From positions 1-26,553 of IMG/VR virus record IMGVR_UViG_3300030389_003603: DNA of 26,553 nucleotides; one strand, written 5' to 3'. The stretch comes from a virus. This document shows, in pieces, positions 1,533-24,723 of this stretch. Under the pieces are notes generated by a model. It did no database searches. It was not told where the DNA came from and saw only the letters and a program-made list of their open reading frames with translations. Made by a program: the position numbers and the translations under genes. Positions within the stretch are counted from its first letter, which is position 1. Each line of letters starts with the position of its first letter.

Positions 1533-3146
1533 TTAAATTGAAGCATCATCTTCTATAGACCTGTCAAGTGCTTGTTGAGTTGATACATCTTGAGATGTTA
1601 CAAAAGCCTTAATAGGTCTGTCTTGTTGGGCACCTATTGTTTCAGCTAATTGGTTTTCAGGTGCAGCACCAACTATATTAAATGCAGGGGGAGGAGTTCC
1701 ACCTCCACCGCCTATATCACCGCCACCTGCTGAGGGAGTAGATGAACTTACAACACTTTTTGCAGCACTTGCTGCTGATTTAACTGCTGACAATATTCCT
1801 GCTGCTTGAGCCGCAAAGGCAATAAGTAAAGGTACATTTTGTGGAAATCCTACTTTAGCTGTTTCAGCAGCACCTTGAGCAGTTGCTACTCCACTTTCAG
1901 AGGACTTCATTGTTATTCTTGCAAGAGTTGCTTTAGCTTGTGCTATTTGTTCTTTTATAATTCTTTTTTGTTGAGCTATAAATAAAACCTTTTCCATTTT
2001 CTCTTGCATACCTATAGAGGCTGCTATACCTAAAAGTTTTTCTTCTCTTTGCTTTTTTTCTTGTTCTTTTATTTCTTTTTCTTTTTCTGCATTTTCTACA
2101 GCTAACTCTCCTGCCTCTCTCTCAAGAGATATTCTGTTTATTAACTGCTCACTTCTAAATCCTTCTATTTGTGCAAGTATTCCTTCTTTTTCAGCTTTGG
2201 CATCTAATAGAGCTATTTGGTTTTCATCATTTGCATTTTTGTCAAACTGAGCCTGAGCTGCATCTATAACAGCTTGAGCATTTGCTAACATTAATTTTTC
2301 CTGTTCATCTAAGACTTTTGCTAAATCTTCATTTGCTTTTATTCTTTCTGCTATTGTTAAAGTTTCATCATCTCTTATCTGTCTTAGCTTTTCTGCCTCT
2401 CTGTCTTTTTGTTCTAAGATGATTCTGTTTTGTGCTATACCTATTTCTGCTGCTCTGTTTAGTTCTACTGTATTTTTTGCAGCTTGTATTGTGCTTTTAG
2501 CATAATTTACTATACTTCCTGTTGTTTTCTTTATAACTTGTTCTACCTCTGCTGTTTCTTCTTTATTACCAACTAACACTTCTCCTAAATTTGTAAAAGC
2601 CTCTGAGGCTGTTTCTGCTGCTCCAGCAAAATCTCCTTTAAAAACTTTTAACAAAGCAGAGCCTAATCCACCTATACCCTGAACAAGATTTTTTATTCTT
2701 GCAATTAATTCTACCCCTATTAAAAAAGAAAACCTTGTAATAGATTGAATTATTGAACTACCAAATATTGAGTCTATAAAACCAGAGGCAGTATTTATAT
2801 TTTTATTTAAAAAATTAAAGAAATCATTAAAGGCTAAAGATAATGACTCAAATACAGTATTGAATGTATTAGTAACTTTTTGGTTTTGTTGGAATACCTC
2901 TGTAAGTTTTGCAAAAGCAGCAATAGCTAAACCTATACCAGCAGCTTTAAGAGCATTACCAAGTCCTTTAATACCTCTGCTTGTTTTTTCTACAGCAGTA
3001 TTGAGTCCTTTAAAACCTTTAGCTGCTTTGGTGTTTGTAGTTGCAACCTCAGAATTAAACTTTTCAATGCCTTGTGCTAAGTCATCAACAGCTTTTGTAG
3101 CTGCTCCTGTTTTAATATCGATTTCAGCATTTATTACTTTTGCCAT
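1533..3146 (-). CDS. Tail tape measure protein
   Basis: Sets tail length and is threaded through the tail tube. The 537-residue protein has the usual pattern: an N-terminal helical region, a hydrophobic Ala/Gly segment (GNALKAAGIGLAIAAFAKL, ~62-82), then a long charged coiled coil (~235-400) rich in Glu, Lys, Gln and Ala. A second Ala-rich hydrophobic stretch follows (~435-465), then a flexible Gly/Pro linker (GGGDIGGGGGTPPP, ~473-487). It is short for the family, which predicts a short tail, or only part of the measuring function. It overlaps the upstream 49-aa ORF by 13 nt and precedes the prohead protease. The call rests on composition and position in the tail operon, not on a conserved motif. 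Confidence 0.75.
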   Translation of the reverse strand: MAKVINAEIDIKTGAATKAVDDLAQGIEKFNSEVATTNTKAAKGFKGLNTAVEKTSRGIKGLGNALKAAGIGLAIAAFAKLTEVFQQNQKVTNTFNTVFESLSLAFNDFFNFLNKNINTASGFIDSIFGSSIIQSITRFSFLIGVELIARIKNLVQGIGGLGSALLKVFKGDFAGAAETASEAFTNLGEVLVGNKEETAEVEQVIKKTTGSIVNYAKSTIQAAKNTVELNRAAEIGIAQNRIILEQKDREAEKLRQIRDDETLTIAERIKANEDLAKVLDEQEKLMLANAQAVIDAAQAQFDKNANDENQIALLDAKAEKEGILAQIEGFRSEQLINRISLEREAGELAVENAEKEKEIKEQEKKQREEKLLGIAASIGMQEKMEKVLFIAQQKRIIKEQIAQAKATLARITMKSSESGVATAQGAAETAKVGFPQNVPLLIAFAAQAAGILSAVKSAASAAKSVVSSSTPSAGGGDIGGGGGTPPPAFNIVGAAPENQLAETIGAQQDRPIKAFVTSQDVSTQQALDRSIEDDASI

Positions 3147-9172: not shown

Positions 9173-9711
9173 GTCAAATTAGTTTCTTCTAAAAAATTAT
9201 CAAAGTCAAGCTCAAATGCATCTATAAACTCCTCAGGTAATTTAAGGTAATTATCCATAAAGGGTCTTGTAAAGAAGCTACTTGCTCTTAGTCCTTTCTC
9301 ATATATACTTTTTGCTATCAAGTATCTTAGACTCTTTCTTGATATAAACCTTCCCTGAGCATCTCTTATGCCATCTAAATTCTTTTTAACCATCCACTTA
9401 TCTAATGATTGTGGTCTTATTGTTTTAAATCTACCTGAAAAAGCAAATCTACTATTTCTACTTTGTGAGTATGTGCTTTTGCTCCCTTTTACACCCTCAT
9501 CTTGATATGAACCATATTCAAGCATTGAGAATTGCAAACTAAATCCTTCAGGTTTTTTATTTAAGGTATAACCTAAACTACCATCTAAGTTACCTGAGCT
9601 GTTACCTGTTATAAATCTATTGTTTCTATTTCTTCTAAGATTTCCCTTTGCTTGTTTTATAACACTATCAGCAAACTTCTCTAATATCTTTTTTACTTCT
9701 TTATATTCCAT
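9169..9711 (-). CDS. Tail completion / head-tail joining-like protein, 180 aa
   Basis: A basic 180-aa protein starting MEYKEVKKILEKFADSVIKQ. Features that recall HK97-gp10-like joining proteins are an N-terminal helix of this kind, a short LEYGSYQDEGVKGSKS segment, and a central basic strand with FKTIRPQSLDKWMVKK. A closing FFTRPFMDNYLKLPEEF segment is also present. It is coupled to the upstream 152-aa gene by a TAATG 1-nt overlap and to the next gene by ATGA. In siphovirus-like operons this position is held by proteins that close the head-tail junction or tail terminator. The assignment is from architecture and context only. Confidence 0.5.
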   Translation of the reverse strand: MEYKEVKKILEKFADSVIKQAKGNLRRNRNNRFITGNSSGNLDGSLGYTLNKKPEGFSLQFSMLEYGSYQDEGVKGSKSTYSQSRNSRFAFSGRFKTIRPQSLDKWMVKKNLDGIRDAQGRFISRKSLRYLIAKSIYEKGLRASSFFTRPFMDNYLKLPEEFIDAFELDFDNFLEETNLT

Positions 9712-10169
9712 TAGCTACAGACTGTCATTTCATTTTGTAATAATATGTTAAATGTTGCAGTCCATCCTGCTAACTTGTTTTCAAACCTATCTACAAAAGG
9801 CTCACAACTTACATCTTCTGCAATCTGAAATTTATTTACATATAGGTCTCCTCTTTGAAATTTATTAAGAACTCTTGTAAGGACTGCAAGTTGAGTATTG
9901 AGTATGTCCTGCTCATTGTCATTACCTACAAATATATCACTAACCTCATCCTTACTTATATCTACTATGTCCATACAGACAATAGAAGTATTGAAAGTGA
10001 TTATCTTTTCTCCTACTGTAGCATTATTTACAATTAAGTGAGCTAAAGGAAAGATAGTCTGTTTACCTAAGTCTACATCTGAAAGCTCACCAAAGGTAAC
10101 AGTCTTGACAAAAGGCTCTGCTGCAAGAGCTGTCTTAATTTGATTTGTTACATCATAGAAGGCTTTCAT
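9711..10169 (-). CDS. Tail terminator/minor tail-like protein, 152 aa
   Basis: A 152-residue cytosolic protein with alternating strands and helices. It starts MKAFYDVTNQIKTALAAEPF, then has FGELSDVDLGKQTIFPLAHL and a C-terminal GWTATFNILLQNEMTVC. The layout (N-terminal helix, strand, long middle helix DILNTQLAVLTRVLNKFQRG, final strand) resembles phage tail-terminator or completion proteins. Its ATG overlaps the stop of the chaperone -1 frame (ATGA at 10166-10169), so ribosomes ending the frameshift product would be well placed to start here. Its stop overlaps the next gene by 1 nt (TAATG). No catalytic motif is visible. Confidence 0.5.
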   Translation of the reverse strand: MKAFYDVTNQIKTALAAEPFVKTVTFGELSDVDLGKQTIFPLAHLIVNNATVGEKIITFNTSIVCMDIVDISKDEVSDIFVGNDNEQDILNTQLAVLTRVLNKFQRGDLYVNKFQIAEDVSCEPFVDRFENKLAGWTATFNILLQNEMTVCS

Positions 10170-10315
10170 TTTTTAATTCTTTTTAATTCTATTTCTGTCT
10201 TTTCTTTTTCAAAGGATAAATACATTAGGCATTGATGGAAATTTAGTTTGGTAACCATGTCATACTTGGTAACATCTCCCTGAGCCAATCCATAGATTGA
10301 CTGATACCAACCCCA
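10166..10315 (-). CDS. -1 frame C-terminal extension of the tail assembly chaperone (made by frameshifting)
   Basis: These 49 codons lie in the -1 frame relative to the 220-aa ORF and have no good start of their own near their N-terminal end. The peptide opens WGWYQSIYGLAQGDVTKYD and continues MVTKLNFHQCLMYLSFEKEK, ending IELKRIKK. It is rich in Trp/Tyr/Gly and ends in a charged helix, unlike a random shadow frame. An internal ATG (10258) could give a 30-aa product but would lose the aromatic motif. A -1 slip on A AAA AAT (10315-10321) joins it to residue 197 of the upstream ORF, giving a 246-aa fusion like lambda gpG-gpGT. The stop TGA overlaps the next ATG. The slip itself is inferred; the open frame and heptamer are seen. 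Confidence 0.7.
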   Translation of the reverse strand, partial: WGWYQSIYGLAQGDVTKYDMVTKLNFHQCLMYLSFEKEKTEIELKRIKK

Positions 10316-10905
10316 TTTTTTTCCAAAGTTTGCCTTTGCTCCATAGTCAAGTTGTCCTCCATCTCTTTGCTCAAATAACTCAGGGTAGTTTGCAACAACT
10401 CCTCTTGTAAAAGATAAAAAAAAACCAGCGAACCCATCGCTACATCTAAAGGCATCTGCTTCATAAGCTCAGGGTTTTCCTCTGCTGTATATTCTTCTAT
10501 TTGGTATCTATTATCTTTTTTAAACTTGACAGGTCTGTATAAGACTGTCATAGCTTTGTGCATATTCTGCCAATCTTTTATATTGTTGTCTATGTCTATG
10601 TATTCTCCTAAAGTCATATCATCCAGCTTAGGGATAAATCCATACTCTACTCCATCCATTATAAAGGTGTTTATTAGTGGAGTCTTAGATTTAAAACTTT
10701 TATTAAGTTCTTTTATAATCTTTTGGACATAGGTAAATTTGACAGTTGCTATATCTTTTAGAGGAAGGTTGCAGAATATCTCTACCATCTTTTGAAGAAG
10801 AAAGTTAGAACCTTGATTTTCCTCTGTATTGATTTTTTCAAATTTTTGGTATTGTTCTAAAGTCATCTCTGAGAGACTTTCAGGAACAGGTATTTTAATC
10901 TTCAT
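10243..10905 (-). CDS. Tail assembly chaperone, zero-frame product (220 aa)
   Basis: First gene of the tail operon after a strong terminator. The 220-aa acidic protein is helical and cytosolic: MKIKIPVPESLSEMTLEQYQ at the start, a GVEYGFIPKLDDMTLGEYID segment (85-104), KQMPLDVAMGSLVFFYLLQE (149-168), then a charged tail. Proteins with this N-terminus are common in Bacteroidota phage tail operons. As in lambda G/GT, most ribosomes would finish here at residue 220 and a minority would slip at residues 196-197 to add the -1 domain. The last ~24 zero-frame residues (NGVGISQSMDWLREMLPSMT) are the shadow of that domain. Chaperone function is inferred from the frameshift layout and location; the tape measure is not immediately next, which is unusual. 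Confidence 0.65.
   Translation of the reverse strand: MKIKIPVPESLSEMTLEQYQKFEKINTEENQGSNFLLQKMVEIFCNLPLKDIATVKFTYVQKIIKELNKSFKSKTPLINTFIMDGVEYGFIPKLDDMTLGEYIDIDNNIKDWQNMHKAMTVLYRPVKFKKDNRYQIEEYTAEENPELMKQMPLDVAMGSLVFFYLLQEELLQTTLSYLSKEMEDNLTMEQRQTLEKNGVGISQSMDWLREMLPSMTWLPN
10284..10301 (-). promoter_or_regulatory. Hairpin downstream of the slippery site
   Basis: On the transcript, GUCAAUC and GAUUGGC pair over 7 bp (one G-U) around the loop UAUG. The stem begins 13 nt after the slippery heptamer. An outer 6-bp pairing, UUGGUA (10310-10305) with UACCAA (10271-10266), would enclose it and start 4 nt after the heptamer. Such structures can pause ribosomes and stimulate frameshifting. Stability was not calculated. 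Confidence 0.4.
10315..10321 (-). promoter_or_regulatory. Slippery heptamer A AAA AAT for -1 frameshifting
   Basis: In the zero frame the codons AAA (Lys196) and AAU (Asn197) of the chaperone ORF follow an A, giving the X XXY YYZ pattern A AAA AAU inside a run of seven A. It sits exactly where the aromatic -1 frame (WGWY) begins. A second candidate, T TTT TTT at 10417-10423 (Phe162-Phe163), is also in zero-frame register and would give a longer -1 product. The A-run is preferred because the zero frame between the two sites (LTMEQRQTLEK) still reads like normal protein. Confidence 0.6.
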
Positions 10906-11766: not shown

Positions 11767-12936
11767 TCAATAAATAAAATACTGACCTTTGTGTGGGTTT
11801 TCTAATACATCTGTAAATACATATCTGGCTGCATCTATACAGTCAGGATGCTCTCCCTCAGGCTTTTGCAGGGTGTTACCTTCTTTATCTTTAGACCACA
11901 CATAGCCTTGTAGCTCTCTTTTGAGGTTCTTACTTCTTTGAGTTATATATATTTCATTCTGATTTATAAGATTGATACCATAGATAACAGAGTCTCTACC
12001 TTTAGTACAAGGAAAGATATTATGACCATACTGAGAAAGTTCAGATATACTCTTTGGTTCTGCTGAGTCTGCTATTATGTTTTCTTTGATATTATGCTGA
12101 TTTAGATACCTGCTTATGTCTCTATTTAACATTCCTGTTTTATACAGGACCTCATCAAATATGTAAGCATCATTCCACTTATAAAGTGCAATTAAGGTTG
12201 TTGGGTCTACACTATATCCAAAATCCATGCCATAGCTAAGTAATTTAGCCTCTACAGGTATATTATCTATTTCTTTCCAATCAGATATACAAGCTCCTTC
12301 AAGACTACCTGTAAGACCATCCAAATAAACTCTACAATAGTTTTTCCAAAAAGTTGAGGTCTTAGCTTTTACTCTTGCTTTCTCCAGCTCCTTGACTATT
12401 GCCTTAGATAAGTTTTCATTATCTCTATAGGTAAGAGTAATATAATCTGTATCAGGCTGACCTATCAGTTCTTTATCTACCCAAAACCTATTGACAGGAT
12501 TATAGTCAAGCCATATATCTCCAGAGGTTCTTACAGCTAATTCTTGATAGCTGCTAAAGCTACAGTTGTTACACTCATTCATAAATAGGTCTGTTCTTCT
12601 TGCCCCTTTGAGTTTTTCTGGCATATCTGTTGAAAAGAACTCTATATAGCTTCCATTGCTAAAAGTGTACTTTAGAAGGCTTCTATTGAACTTACTCTCA
12701 TCAAACCTACCAAGACCTTGCATGATACTTAGAAAGTCTTTTAGAGAGCCTCTCCTTAAACTTGGTATAGTAGAAGCTACTACACTTATTTCCTTTCCTT
12801 TGTTCTTTATGGCATCATTTATTAGAATAAGAAGTATACCTATAGTCTTACCAGCAGAGGTACCTCCTCTGATAATTTTTATTCTTTGTTTTAACTCTCT
12901 GAGTTTATTTACTGCTGTAGTTTTCTTAGGTAGCAT
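11767..12936 (-). CDS. terL: Terminase large subunit (TerL)
   Basis: DNA-packaging motor that pumps DNA into the prohead with ATP and cuts it. The 389-aa length is usual for the PBSX-like/Terminase_3 type. Walker A is RGGTSAGKT (~23-31); Walker B and the catalytic Glu are in TDLFMNECN (115-123, E121). A coupling motif GDIWLDYNP follows (~139-147). The nuclease domain shows acidic residues at D238 (SYGMDFGYSVDP), D290 (IIADSAEP) and D365 or D368 (HPDCIDAARYVF). The gene follows the PP-loop enzyme gene by 9 nt and is the third gene after the small terminase. Start ATG has no Shine-Dalgarno, as elsewhere here. Nothing is missing. Confidence 0.95.
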   Translation of the reverse strand: MLPKKTTAVNKLRELKQRIKIIRGGTSAGKTIGILLILINDAIKNKGKEISVVASTIPSLRRGSLKDFLSIMQGLGRFDESKFNRSLLKYTFSNGSYIEFFSTDMPEKLKGARRTDLFMNECNNCSFSSYQELAVRTSGDIWLDYNPVNRFWVDKELIGQPDTDYITLTYRDNENLSKAIVKELEKARVKAKTSTFWKNYCRVYLDGLTGSLEGACISDWKEIDNIPVEAKLLSYGMDFGYSVDPTTLIALYKWNDAYIFDEVLYKTGMLNRDISRYLNQHNIKENIIADSAEPKSISELSQYGHNIFPCTKGRDSVIYGINLINQNEIYITQRSKNLKRELQGYVWSKDKEGNTLQKPEGEHPDCIDAARYVFTDVLENPHKGQYFIY

Positions 12937-12945
12937 TATTGAAAT

Positions 12946-13794
12946 TTATATACCACAATAGCCAGAATCACATTCATTAAAATCATCATCAAACAATTCA
13001 GATTGTAAACTCCAACTTTTAATGTCATTAAAAGATAAGTTCTTGTCTTTATACCAAACATCTTTATTATGTTTTATTCTTTCTTTTGAAGCAAACCATT
13101 CTAATTTATTTTTATGTTGTTCCCACATCTTTCTTATAAGTAATGGGTTTTTATGAAAACACCCTACACAATTATTCATCCAAGCAAATCTGACAGGTTT
13201 GTCTATCCAATATTTCTCTATATTATCTTTATATATATTGTCTTTTATTAATGGGAAGATTGGCTTTTGCCATTCTATAAAACCCCACTTGTTTCTTGTT
13301 TTTCTTTTTCCTACTACTGCTTTCATTTCTAAAAAACCATTATTGTTTGTTTTTTCAGAAGTTCTTTTAGCTCTTGACATTTCATTTGCCCTAAAGCCTA
13401 ATCTAAACTTACAGGGTTTTTTAACTGTCTTTCTCCACCAATCAAACATAGGCTGCATTTTCATTTGTGTTGTACAGTATCTTCTTAAAGGGTCTGGTAA
13501 AGTTCCTGCACTCTCCAAAACCTTATCAAATGTTTTACCTGTAACCCAAGTTATCTTTCTGCCTATGTATTGTTCTAAGTCTAACATAGTATAAATAATC
13601 ATATCATCTTCTGCAGTTGCAATAAATGGTGCTTGTATTCTATCTTCTACTTCTTGTCTTATTTTCTTGTCAGGAAATTTAGATGGTTTATGTTCTATCC
13701 TTACAAGTGCAAATACATCATAGTCCGCAGGATAATTTGCAGCTATATATGAGGAGGTCTTACCTCCACTTAAAGAATTTACTTTAATCAACAA
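12946..13794 (-). CDS. PP-loop / PAPS-reductase-like enzyme with Cys cluster
   Basis: Adenine-nucleotide alpha-hydrolase superfamily, which activates substrates by adenylation. The signature SGGKTSS (9-15) is the PP-loop. RRYCTTQMKMQP (105-115) carries Cys107, and NNCVGCFHKNP (207-217) has a CxxC pair (Cys209, Cys212). The C-terminus CDSGYC adds Cys275 and Cys280. A single Cys plus a CxxC is compatible with a three- or four-Cys iron-sulfur site, as in sulfur-transfer relatives (TtcA/TtuA, DndC, PAPS reductase). The 282-aa gene is wedged between small and large terminase, overlapping the former by 11 nt. Possible roles are sulfur modification of DNA or tRNA, or reductive sulfur metabolism. Substrate is unknown; the superfamily call is firm. 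Confidence 0.75.
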   Translation of the reverse strand: MLIKVNSLSGGKTSSYIAANYPADYDVFALVRIEHKPSKFPDKKIRQEVEDRIQAPFIATAEDDMIIYTMLDLEQYIGRKITWVTGKTFDKVLESAGTLPDPLRRYCTTQMKMQPMFDWWRKTVKKPCKFRLGFRANEMSRAKRTSEKTNNNGFLEMKAVVGKRKTRNKWGFIEWQKPIFPLIKDNIYKDNIEKYWIDKPVRFAWMNNCVGCFHKNPLLIRKMWEQHKNKLEWFASKERIKHNKDVWYKDKNLSFNDIKSWSLQSELFDDDFNECDSGYCGI

Positions 13795-16691: not shown

Positions 16692-17027
16692 TTATTTGAT
16701 ACCCAATTCATTTTTTGTTTTAAGTTTTTGAATCTCTTGCAGAAGTTCATCAATTCTTTTTTCTGCCTTTCTTGCTCTTTCTATTGCTCTTATTTTTTGA
16801 CTTCTATAGTCATCTACTGTATCTGCAAAACTTAATCTCTCAAGTCCAAACTTGTTAGTTATAAATGTAATCTCAATAATAGCATCTCTGAATTTATTGA
16901 GTGTTTCATTTTCTGGTTTCTGTTTGGACCACTCTAAAATCTGTTCTTGAAGAAATAATAAATTAGATTGAAGTTTTAAATCTTCTATTGCTTCAAACTT
17001 TTTTCTCATGTAGGTTTCTTTTTCCAT
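16692..17027 (-). CDS. Coiled-coil hypothetical protein, 111 aa
   Basis: ATG 17027 is used because it overlaps the previous stop as TAATG, a pattern repeated in this genome; an ATG at 17039 would add four residues. The protein is helical throughout: MEKETYMRKKFEAIEDLKLQ, a middle NKFGLERLSFADTVDDYRSQ, then a Lys/Arg/Glu coiled coil at ~80-108 (RAIERARKAEKRIDELLQEI). No enzyme motif is present. Position between two nucleases suggests a structural or adaptor role in DNA metabolism. Function is unknown. Confidence 0.6.
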   Translation of the reverse strand: MEKETYMRKKFEAIEDLKLQSNLLFLQEQILEWSKQKPENETLNKFRDAIIEITFITNKFGLERLSFADTVDDYRSQKIRAIERARKAEKRIDELLQEIQKLKTKNELGIK

Positions 17028-17419
17028 TAAAATTTGCATTTATGACACTTCCATTTTACCCCTAATCTATTTATAAAATATACAAAATCATATTTTTTTT
17101 TTGGATATTGCCAATTATTTTTATGATACCAAGCTGTTACCTTACATTCTTCAAGAGGAATATTTACTGTATCATCTTTAAAATTATGTTCTACTTTTAT
17201 TGCTATACCATAGCCATTCCAGCTATCTACTATTCTTTCAAGTATTAATTTTTGTCCTGTAGGTATCCTGTTAAATTGTCTTTTAACTTCTCCCAGAATC
17301 AAAACTTTATTGTCAAATTCCAAAACGAAATCTATATCACTTGGGTGCATCTTACCATTTTGCACACCTGTAAAATCAATTACTTGTTTTACTTGGTTCC
17401 TATTTCTTATTAAACTCAC
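17027..17419 (-). CDS. Putative PD-(D/E)XK-fold nuclease, 130 aa
   Basis: The start is GTG, overlapping the previous TGA (GTGA). Residues 24-46 (MHPSDIDFVLEFDNKVLILG followed by EVK) give Asp28 or Asp30, then Glu44-x-Lys46, the restriction-endonuclease-like D-(x)n-ExK pattern. A basic patch RQFNRIPTGQKL follows. The C-terminus KCHKCKF has a CxxC that could bind zinc with partners elsewhere. It is compact (130 aa) and resembles small nuclease-fold proteins in Bacteroidota phages. Target could be branched or single-stranded DNA. The fold call is by motif only; specificity is not determinable. Confidence 0.55.
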   Translation of the reverse strand: MSLIRNRNQVKQVIDFTGVQNGKMHPSDIDFVLEFDNKVLILGEVKRQFNRIPTGQKLILERIVDSWNGYGIAIKVEHNFKDDTVNIPLEECKVTAWYHKNNWQYPKKKYDFVYFINRLGVKWKCHKCKF

Positions 17420-22365: not shown

Positions 22366-24723
22366 TTATTTAAATGCCATATATAAGTAAGTATTAGAAG
22401 AAAGGTTTACTGCTAGACTTGTATTAGTATTTATTTTAAAGCCTGTACTTACAAATGTTATTTGTCTATCTGAATGTTGTGATTCAATTGCATTATCGTT
22501 TGCCTCTAACATAAATCCGTTTGCCGCATCTCTTCTGTTATCAAAAATACACCAATCGTGTGCATTAGTAGTGTTTTTAATTATTACCCAAGATGGTTCA
22601 AAATCTGTTGGTATTATATCAGTAGATGCTTGACCACCATTATAAGTACCTATCTTACTATAACCTGCAACAGAATGCCAAAGATAAGCCACATAGGTTC
22701 CTGTAGTATTTGAGAAATAAGGATTAAATACAGTTGAAGTTGGGTCAGCAACAGGTGTTGGACTTGCCACAGAAAATGCACCTGTACTAAAACCACCACT
22801 TTTATAAGTACCATCTATATTTGCTTGTATTTGCCAATTATCATTTCCATTCCTTCTCTTTATTATTACTATATCAGGGGTTGAGGAAAGTCCATGACCT
22901 ACTGTATCACTTGTTACATTTCCATTTCCTGTTCCTGTATAGGTAACAATAGAGAATCCAGCAGCAGTATTCGCACTTACAGAACTATTTATGTTTGCAC
23001 CATCAGTATTTGAAACAGCAGTACCTCCACCTTTCCACACCCACGAAACAAAAGAATTATTATTTTTATTTGTTCCATTAGCACTTTTAACAAAAAAACC
23101 ATTAGCTTCAAATGAATCAATATAAATACCTGAACTATCTTCTGTAAAAGTACCATCACTAAAAATCTGTTTTGATACACCTCTGACAGAATCTGTCCAA
23201 ATATGACTTAAAGTACCATCTCTATCCTTTACCCAAACTAATCCACCACTTGTTTCTAAATCCATACCTACATTAGAAATATATTGATTTGCACCTGTAC
23301 CCTCATACAATACAGTTTTAAAGTCAGATGTATCTGTTTCAGGTTTTTCCTCAGAAAGTTGTGTTACTTGAGAACTTGAAAGCACAGTTGAAAATATGCG
23401 TACTTGGTCTAAATTTCCACTCCAATAGGAATCGTTGTTTATTTTTCTATAACCAAATGCAAGTTGATGACCACTTCCAGCTGTTGATGTTGTTGGATTA
23501 TGCCCATAATTATTATTATCTACTAAAGTACCATCTAAATATAAATAATAATGATTTGAATCATTTACCAAACATATATGATGCCACTGGTTATTAGTTG
23601 TAGACATATTAAGGGTTAAAGCAGATGAAGCTCCATTATCTCTTGCATCAATCACAACATCATCACCTCTGATTAAAATAGCAGAACCCCCTCCATCTTC
23701 TTCTCCAATTATTCTGCCTGTAGATGTTACATTTGTTGATTTTGCCCAACAAGAAATAGCAAAATTTGACCTATCAAATAATGATAGACTTGATATATCT
23801 ATCTTGCTATTACTACCATTAAATACTGCCGCTTGACCATAACGACCAAACCTGTATTCTATATTTGATTCAGTACCATCATAAGTACCTGAATGGCTAT
23901 CTTCTGCTGAATTGTCTAATTTGTAATAAGCAAGGTTTGTAACAGGGAAATCTACTATATCAGTTGTAGATGTATGTACACAAGCAGTTTCTGCGGCAAG
24001 TTGTCCTATTTCTGATGCAGTTAATGCTCTGTCAAATATTCTTAAATGGTCAATGTCAATGCTAAAAGGCTCTTGAAGTGCGTTATCAAAATAATGTCCT
24101 ATATAAAAACGATTAGGTGCAGCATCATCAACTCCTGCACTTGATGTTGCACTACCTACACTATAGCTCATTGTAGCTTTTGTGCCATTTATATATATAC
24201 CATTTCTAATACTATCTTCTAAAGTATCCCCCATACGCATAGCCAAGTGTATCCAAGAACCGTTTAATGATGTATCTATTAATGTGTGTGCTACAAGGGT
24301 ATTAGTGCCTGAAGTAGTACCTGTTCTTGTAAATAAATCTGCACTGTATTGTGAATCAGATGAACTGTAATTTATTCGCATAAAAGCAAATCTTCTACTG
24401 CCATCACGATTAAAATTAAACCTTGTGGAACCTGTGCCTACAAGTTTTGCCCAAAAAGAAACAGTTATACTTGAATAATTAAAGCCAATAGAAGTATTAG
24501 CCATCATAGAAGTGCTTTGTCCACCTCTCAAACCATTATTTATATATCCTCCTACTCCAAAAAAAACTGCTGTTGGTGTTAAATGATACTCATTTGCACT
24601 TTCATCACTTCCATCATAATCAAAAGTGTATAATGCCTTACCATTACCATCGCCAAACTTATCAGCAGTATCTGTAGTACAAACTGCTGCTCCTTCTGTA
24701 AATAATCTTTTGCCTAAACTCAT
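22366..24723 (-). CDS. Tail fibre/receptor-binding protein with two LamG domains and a DUF7483-like end
   Basis: A 785-aa virion protein. Two concanavalin-A/LamG-like domains are visible, at ~35-240 (SITVSFWAKL, WIHLAMRMGD, IDHLRIFDRALTASEIGQLA) and ~265-455 (NFAISCWAKS, WHHICLVNDSNHYYLYLDGT, LDQVRIFSTVLSSSQVTQLS). Both carry the paired beta-sandwich pattern used to bind sugars. Residues ~465-785 match the DUF7483-like family of marine phages (GGLVWVKDRDGTLSHIWTDS, NSFVSWVWKGGG, GHGLSSTPDIVIIKRRN, and YLYMAFK at the end). It likely binds host-surface glycans. A TAATG overlap couples it to the preceding assembly-like gene. The LamG folds are the strongest call. Confidence 0.8.
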   Translation of the reverse strand: MSLGKRLFTEGAAVCTTDTADKFGDGNGKALYTFDYDGSDESANEYHLTPTAVFFGVGGYINNGLRGGQSTSMMANTSIGFNYSSITVSFWAKLVGTGSTRFNFNRDGSRRFAFMRINYSSSDSQYSADLFTRTGTTSGTNTLVAHTLIDTSLNGSWIHLAMRMGDTLEDSIRNGIYINGTKATMSYSVGSATSSAGVDDAAPNRFYIGHYFDNALQEPFSIDIDHLRIFDRALTASEIGQLAAETACVHTSTTDIVDFPVTNLAYYKLDNSAEDSHSGTYDGTESNIEYRFGRYGQAAVFNGSNSKIDISSLSLFDRSNFAISCWAKSTNVTSTGRIIGEEDGGGSAILIRGDDVVIDARDNGASSALTLNMSTTNNQWHHICLVNDSNHYYLYLDGTLVDNNNYGHNPTTSTAGSGHQLAFGYRKINNDSYWSGNLDQVRIFSTVLSSSQVTQLSEEKPETDTSDFKTVLYEGTGANQYISNVGMDLETSGGLVWVKDRDGTLSHIWTDSVRGVSKQIFSDGTFTEDSSGIYIDSFEANGFFVKSANGTNKNNNSFVSWVWKGGGTAVSNTDGANINSSVSANTAAGFSIVTYTGTGNGNVTSDTVGHGLSSTPDIVIIKRRNGNDNWQIQANIDGTYKSGGFSTGAFSVASPTPVADPTSTVFNPYFSNTTGTYVAYLWHSVAGYSKIGTYNGGQASTDIIPTDFEPSWVIIKNTTNAHDWCIFDNRRDAANGFMLEANDNAIESQHSDRQITFVSTGFKINTNTSLAVNLSSNTYLYMAFK

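Follow-up and report, generated by a model that had tools for sequence, protein, structure and literature searches.

A conserved nine-T run marks a probable programmed -1 frame switch in a tail-module gene of aquatic phages

The window, by which we mean the whole 26,553-nt stretch of viral DNA under study, contained a 220-codon open reading frame (ORF) on the minus strand, and two small ORFs separated it from the upstream gene for the large terminase subunit (Table 1). The original prediction had placed a second coding segment, WGWYQSIYGLAQGDVTKYD...MYLSFEKEK, across the final part of this ORF in the -1 frame, with a stop codon overlapping the start of the next gene by ATGA. The ORF, the segment, and the overlap were all present as described. 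A tape-measure-like gene was located about 7 kb downstream of the 220-codon gene (here termed the slip gene) and did not adjoin it. No tRNA genes and no Rfam matches were found.

Table 1. Features of the slip gene and its surroundings (positions are those of the window)
Feature	Position	Strand	Remarks
Zero-frame ORF, 220 aa (predicted short product)	10243..10905	minus	Residues 1-163 common, plus the 57-aa tail C0; conserved in relatives
Common N-terminal part (N), codons 1-163, last codons TTT TTT	10417..10905	minus	AlphaFold2 pLDDT about 78-94
T9 run, GTT TTT TTT TAT, probable slip site	10416..10424 (10424-10416)	minus	9 or 10 T in 380/380 distinct relatives
In-phase heptamer T TTT TTT inside the T9 run	10423-10417	minus	
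-1-frame extension (C1), 83 aa, LSFTRGVVANYPELFEQRD...KRIKK	10169..10417	minus	-1 frame in 494/494 relatives; alignments
C1 stop codon	10166-10168	minus	
Overlap, most likely dual-coding, 171 nt: C0 (YLLQEELL...TWLPN) and first part of C1	10246..10416	minus	Synonymous suppression, randomization
A AAA AAT heptamer of the original prediction, judged not to be the slip site	10315..10321	minus	In 57/191 relatives
Next gene, 152 aa, tail-completion-like position, ATGA overlap with C1 stop	9711..10169	minus	
Large terminase subunit, upstream	11767..12936	minus	Pfam PF04466 + PF17288
Tape-measure-like protein, 537 aa, same tail module (identity inferred)	1533..3146	minus	PHROG 21537 virion structural protein, E 1.5e-15

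Relatives of the slip gene were gathered by searching viral contigs and genome contigs; the queries were the proteins of the zero and -1 frames and several fusions. Of the 497 sequences examined, 494 had the -1 segment as well as the N-terminal part, and 380 of the sequences were distinct. The relatives were the best matches for each search, and the family is larger than the at least 494 members sampled here. Their identity reached down to about 21-25%. The counts of relatives given below are not independent observations, yet the total of about 44 substitutions per site in their 371-tip tree shows that they span a deep divergence. The gene neighborhood was strongly conserved. Among the matches listed, a terminase gene was found upstream on the same strand in 329 loci, and within 3 kb in 321 loci. 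A counterpart of the 152-aa gene followed in the same orientation in 397 loci, at a median of 2 nt past the C1 stop, and a 180-aa tail-completion-like gene lay downstream on the same strand in 298 loci.

The -1 segment had been taken for real, constrained protein, and the comparison bore this out. In all 494 of the scored relatives among the matches listed, the C1 segment was in the -1 frame relative to N, and its conservation was well beyond chance. Homologues with stops in the -1 frame, or with no conservation in that frame, did not occur, and no relative with a single continuous frame was found among the 494 loci. As for the point at which the frame changes, the alignment of C1 began at the T run, and its first residues (LxFxxR) and a YPELF motif were conserved. 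The run itself was 9 T long in 341 and 10 T long in 39 of the 380 distinct genes, and no gene had a run of 8 or fewer. In the relatives, the closest -1-frame stop lay only 5 nt upstream of the T run, and some relatives had a zero-frame stop 7, 16, or 25 codons past the heptamer. With a -1-frame stop so near before the run and an early zero-frame stop after it, the switch must occur at the T run. In one relative (L154), the zero frame ended 7 codons past the slip although C1 was intact, so the zero-frame tail appears to be dispensable there.

These results indicated that the gene very probably undergoes a programmed -1 frame switch at the T9 run and gives rise to two products. Without a slip, translation would yield the 220-aa protein; with a slip, it would yield a 246-aa fusion that has the same first 163 residues followed by the conserved C1 domain, which is predicted to be all-helical. 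As judged from the comparison of relatives, the position of the switch is well established. A conserved -1 frame transition, kept by selection, by which a gene among tail genes gains a C-terminal domain was strongly supported, and it was the originally proposed slip site that did not hold.

In the AlphaFold2 model that covered N, blocks of 10 residues had pLDDT values of about 78-94 as far as residue 170 or so, and a long predicted helix (residues 153-182) crossed the slip site. The zero-frame tail was of low confidence past about residue 180, which fits the finding that some relatives keep only a short zero-frame tail. The C1 domain was predicted to be all-helical with a mean pLDDT of 74. The AlphaFold2 models supported the dual-coding reading (see below) in part. 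Pfam and PDB sequence searches with N and C1 returned nothing useful and no relative of solved structure, and a Foldseek search of the PDB with the N model gave no significant match. The VIA-align matches were set aside; those for N were unspecific helix matches with Z below 7, and C1 gave a single row with Z 2.0. The zero-frame ORF corresponded to PHROG 32199, and C1 matched PHROG 38404 (15 of 53 members); both are families of unknown function.

We then looked at codon choice in and after the run. The codons for F162 and F163 were TTT in 199 of 199 genes (for seven sequences whose indexing was shifted, the heptamer served as the check), and the TTT:TTC ratio at conserved Phe positions elsewhere was 118:67 at F44 and 140:39 at F90. 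Between relatives, synonymous change was zero at the three slip codons and amounted to 0.33-0.72 of expectation over the 56 codons after the slip. It was back to 1.01 in codons 57-64, which lie just beyond the zero-frame stop. The extent of the suppression tracked the length of C0. Specifically, it ended near codon 57 in genes with a long C0, and it covered only the first 16 or so codons in a short-C0 clade of 14 genes in which the zero-frame stop came by codon 25. Both the conservation of the -1 frame and the synonymous-site suppression that had been anticipated for homologues were found, and the comparison showed selection on the T run itself as well as conservation of both frames.

The open zero frame was also longer than codon usage would give. 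When the synonymous codons of C1 were randomized by codon usage, the median distance to the end of the zero frame was 6 codons, against 57 in the real genes. A milder shuffle that kept each gene's own codons gave a weaker excess, with a median p of 0.08. Because of the suppression and the randomization results, the 171-nt overlap is most likely dual-coding in the main clade, and the slip gene would be a clear example of dual coding over a long stretch of one strand. We infer that both proteins are made.

If an RNA polymerase slipped at the run, it would insert one U at U9 and place the following codons in the -1 frame, and the resulting protein would be the same as that made by a ribosomal slip. 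With modest confidence, we favored RNA polymerase slippage at T9 over ribosomal -1 frameshifting because a run of at least nine T was kept even where the codon phase of the run shifted. In the 380 distinct genes, the run never fell below nine T, although seven T suffice for the heptamer. The base after the heptamer was not T in six genes; in all six, the preceding codon (codon A) was TTT and the run was exactly nine T long, as in CGG TTT TTT TTT GCT. Codon A was TTT in only 30 of the 365 other genes. The six phase-shifted genes corresponded to four parsimony events, or perhaps to just two, should one of the events have been spread by recombination. In five marine contigs (L283, L313, L284, L319, and L320), the T9 run was displaced by two bases against the codon frame (CGG/AGG TTTTTTTTT G), and its length was unchanged.

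Long T runs were rare around the slip gene. Runs of nine or more T did not occur in the 266 neighboring genes (slip gene excluded), in which about 11.5 were expected, and T7 and T8 runs were depleted in either codon phase. Slippage by bacterial polymerase is efficient at about nine A/T (PMC5009743, PMC1088944), and a homopolymer of at least nine A or T was present at the junction in 380 of 380 distinct genes. The junction was like those of Thermus thermophilus dnaX and Shigella mxiE, two cases of transcriptional slippage, in having a nine-A/T homopolymer at the known threshold. It differed in its setting, as such slippage is known from cellular, secretion-system, or IS genes and the slip gene is a phage tail gene.

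The alternative of ribosomal -1 frameshifting concerns the mechanism only. It supposes that the ribosome, unaided by an RNA stimulator, slips at the T run on U_UUU_UUU, in the scheme of lambda gpG/gpGT, and we consider it possible, if more tentative than polymerase slippage. An in-phase T TTT TTT lay within every nine-T run in all of the genes, and the characterized frameshifts in tail-assembly chaperone (TAC) genes are described as ribosomal (PMC5009743), with 6-7% frameshift in two tested TAC genes (PMC3711429). However, in E. coli the ribosome shifts much less readily on U_UUU_UUU than on A_AAA_AAG (PMC5009743), and the 380 distinct genes contained no other slippery heptamer at the junction, not even T TTT TTC. 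The nine-T length that persisted through changes in codon phase also argued against a ribosomal slip, with the reservations that amino acid constraints (an aliphatic codon before the run and the need for Leu/Phe in C1) partly explain the extra T's and that the phase-shifted genes may stand for few independent events.

The lack of a stimulatory structure was a further point against the ribosome. The original prediction had included pairing regions downstream of the slip site, and these were not recovered: no RNA stimulator was found up- or downstream of the run with a folding model of nested pairings, the mean folding z was about 0 around the run (12 windows), and the RNAalifold consensus of 75 relatives was empty. 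A downstream stem-loop or pseudoknot is common with -1 ribosomal frameshifting and is not an absolute requirement for it. As to the shift being ribosomal, as first proposed, the conservation of run length pointed at least as much to transcriptional slippage. Both mechanisms acting together, or something else, would account for the small remaining probability.

Polymerase slippage in a phage tail gene was not found in the literature searched. A mention of transcriptional slippage in a Campylobacter phage was set aside, as it concerns a methyltransferase. If polymerase slippage at T9 is correct, this would be, to our knowledge, the first phage tail-assembly gene to use RNA polymerase slippage where others use ribosomal frameshifting. 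The dnaX genes of E. coli and Thermus are known to swap ribosomal frameshifting and RNA polymerase slippage. The relatives described here would offer a large natural set in which to ask whether phages can make the same swap at one regulatory step. The full proposal, which we consider about evenly balanced, is that an aquatic phage family sets its tail-chaperone isoforms through programmed slippage by the host's RNA polymerase at a strictly kept T9 run that is followed by at least 50 dual-coding codons.

The two products would act as a TAC pair, like lambda gpG and gpGT. By analogy, N would be the part that binds the tape-measure protein, and recruitment of the tail-tube subunit would fall to C1. 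Such a role seemed likely. As in lambda gpG/gpGT and HK97-type TACs, one gene has two predicted products with a common N-terminal part. As in lambda, the -1 change would add a C-terminal domain, the context is that of tail genes, and the extension is missed by ordinary annotation. The frame arrangement that joins the two reading frames was conserved in 494 of 494 relatives, and a zero-frame X XXY YYZ heptamer, T TTT TTT within 9-10 T, was present at the junction in all of them. In contrast to lambda, which slips at GGGAAAG, the slip gene has a T9 run; it has 57 zero-frame codons past the slip that appear to be under selection themselves; and it shows no sequence match, does not lie beside the tape-measure gene, and possibly uses a transcriptional mechanism.

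It is also conceivable, but unlikely, that the frame transition is real and that the gene is not a TAC but encodes some other factor in two isoforms, such as one for head-tail functions or tail completion. No match to a TAC Pfam family was found. The gene was not situated between major tail protein and tape-measure genes, as is typical of TACs; it was located between terminase and tail-completion-like genes, far from the tape-measure-like gene. On the other hand, a common N-terminal part combined with a -1 shift in a tail module is the hallmark of TACs, and N had weak structural matches to the TAC-named protein ctCpR1 (E 0.018, TM about 0.4) and to a protein of Flavobacterium phage 6H. Because there was no TAC-family match, the fold match was weak, and the tape-measure-like gene lay about 7 kb away, we regard the pair as probably functioning in the manner of gpG/gpGT and do not file it as a member of the family. 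The parallel with gpG/gpGT drawn in the original prediction thus held for the architecture, and it did not extend to a sequence match with a TAC family or to a position directly before the tape-measure gene.

The phage 6H match was to a 191-aa gene (R9VW65; structural match to N, E 1e-3) that, like the slip gene, is followed by unannotated coding capacity in another frame, and it lies upstream of a putative tape-measure gene. It differed from the slip gene in that it had no T9 run, and its frame relation is possibly affected by sequencing errors. In the phage 6H genome (KC959568.1, 10052-10927, minus strand), about 300 nt after the 191-aa gene were unannotated, with the other frame open. It is possible that this stretch is a counterpart of C1, reached by a further frame change or separated by a sequencing error.

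The remaining explanations bear on the frame switch itself. One is that C1 is a separate small protein made by internal initiation, as gene 39 of phage P12024S (next to gene 38) is annotated, and not part of a fusion. About 40% of relatives had an ATG, GTG, or TTG before KWGW in the -1 frame, but 112 of 191 relatives had none there. The window was among the latter, as no such codon preceded WGW in its -1 frame, in agreement with the original view that the segment lacks a suitable start. In addition, C1 was conserved all the way to the T run, where its first codon lies, and synonymous change in the run was zero. We therefore regard internal initiation as very unlikely.

Even less probable is a -1 shift at A AAA AAT, the join given in the original prediction. 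The heptamer exists and is valid and in phase, but it was kept in only 57 of 191 relatives. The -1 frame was already open and conserved at the T9 run, about 100 nt upstream of A AAA AAT, and stayed so after it; this upstream part, which includes LxFxxR, YPELF, and LSFTRGVVANYPELFEQRDGGQLDYGAKANFGKK, was readable, conserved protein in every relative. Moreover, the relatives with a zero-frame stop 7-25 codons past the T run never reach the A AAA AAT heptamer in the zero frame. With the slip at T9 instead of A7, the junction peptide proposed with it (EK[N/K]WGWY) is also wrong, and the expected tryptic junction is QMPLDVAMGSLVFFLSFTR. A run length that is wrong through faulty assembly or sequencing, or decay of the gene, has a negligible chance of explaining the locus: homopolymers are error-prone and the zero frame ends early in one relative (L154), but the same run length and register recurred in 380 distinct, separately assembled sequences, which came from many metagenomes and also from two cultured phages and the genome of an isolate; this excludes a length error in either the A run or the T run, and both frames were under selection.

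The cultured Nonlabens (Persicivirga) phages P12024S and P12024L had the same T9 run and the same frames, and the isolate genome of Flagellimonas onchidii had the same run and frame arrangement. The phages that carry the slip gene formed a large aquatic family, mainly linked to Bacteroidota. Three close relatives were on contigs binned into metagenome-assembled genomes labeled Euryarchaeota (L172), Pseudooceanicola (L171), and Epsilonproteobacteria (L170), and the binning of these phage contigs may be wrong.

In P12024S and P12024L (JQ823122.1 and JQ823123.1), genes 38 and 39 are direct homologues of the slip gene with the T9 run in the same arrangement. They differ from it in being annotated as two unrelated hypothetical proteins and in having a zero-frame tail of only 25 codons. 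Judging from the conserved frames, genes 38 and 39 are the halves of one frame-shifted gene in each of these phages. PHROG 32199 and PHROG 38404 should therefore be linked. This would unite two families of hypothetical proteins in one gene product and correct the annotation in hundreds of phage genomes. No report of this T9 frameshift was found in the literature searched. Some viral proteins of 234-280 aa in BFVD, among them A0A516L611, A0A516L5A8, A0A6J7WJY4, and A0A6J5N0W0 (about 240-267 aa), matched both the N and C1 models, which suggests that they are distant relatives in which the fusion is encoded in a single frame.

Elsewhere in the window, a T10 run was present on the plus strand at 17093-17102 (A10 in the minus-strand ORF 17027-17419). 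It was considered as a second switch and rejected, as the run stays in frame inside an intact 130-aa ORF. Two other ORFs were noted by eye. A 282-aa ORF between the terminase genes (12946-13794) resembled PAPS-reductase-like phage proteins, and a 785-aa ORF (22366-24723) had repeated LamG-like (concanavalin-type) stretches and is likely to encode an adhesin or tail fiber.
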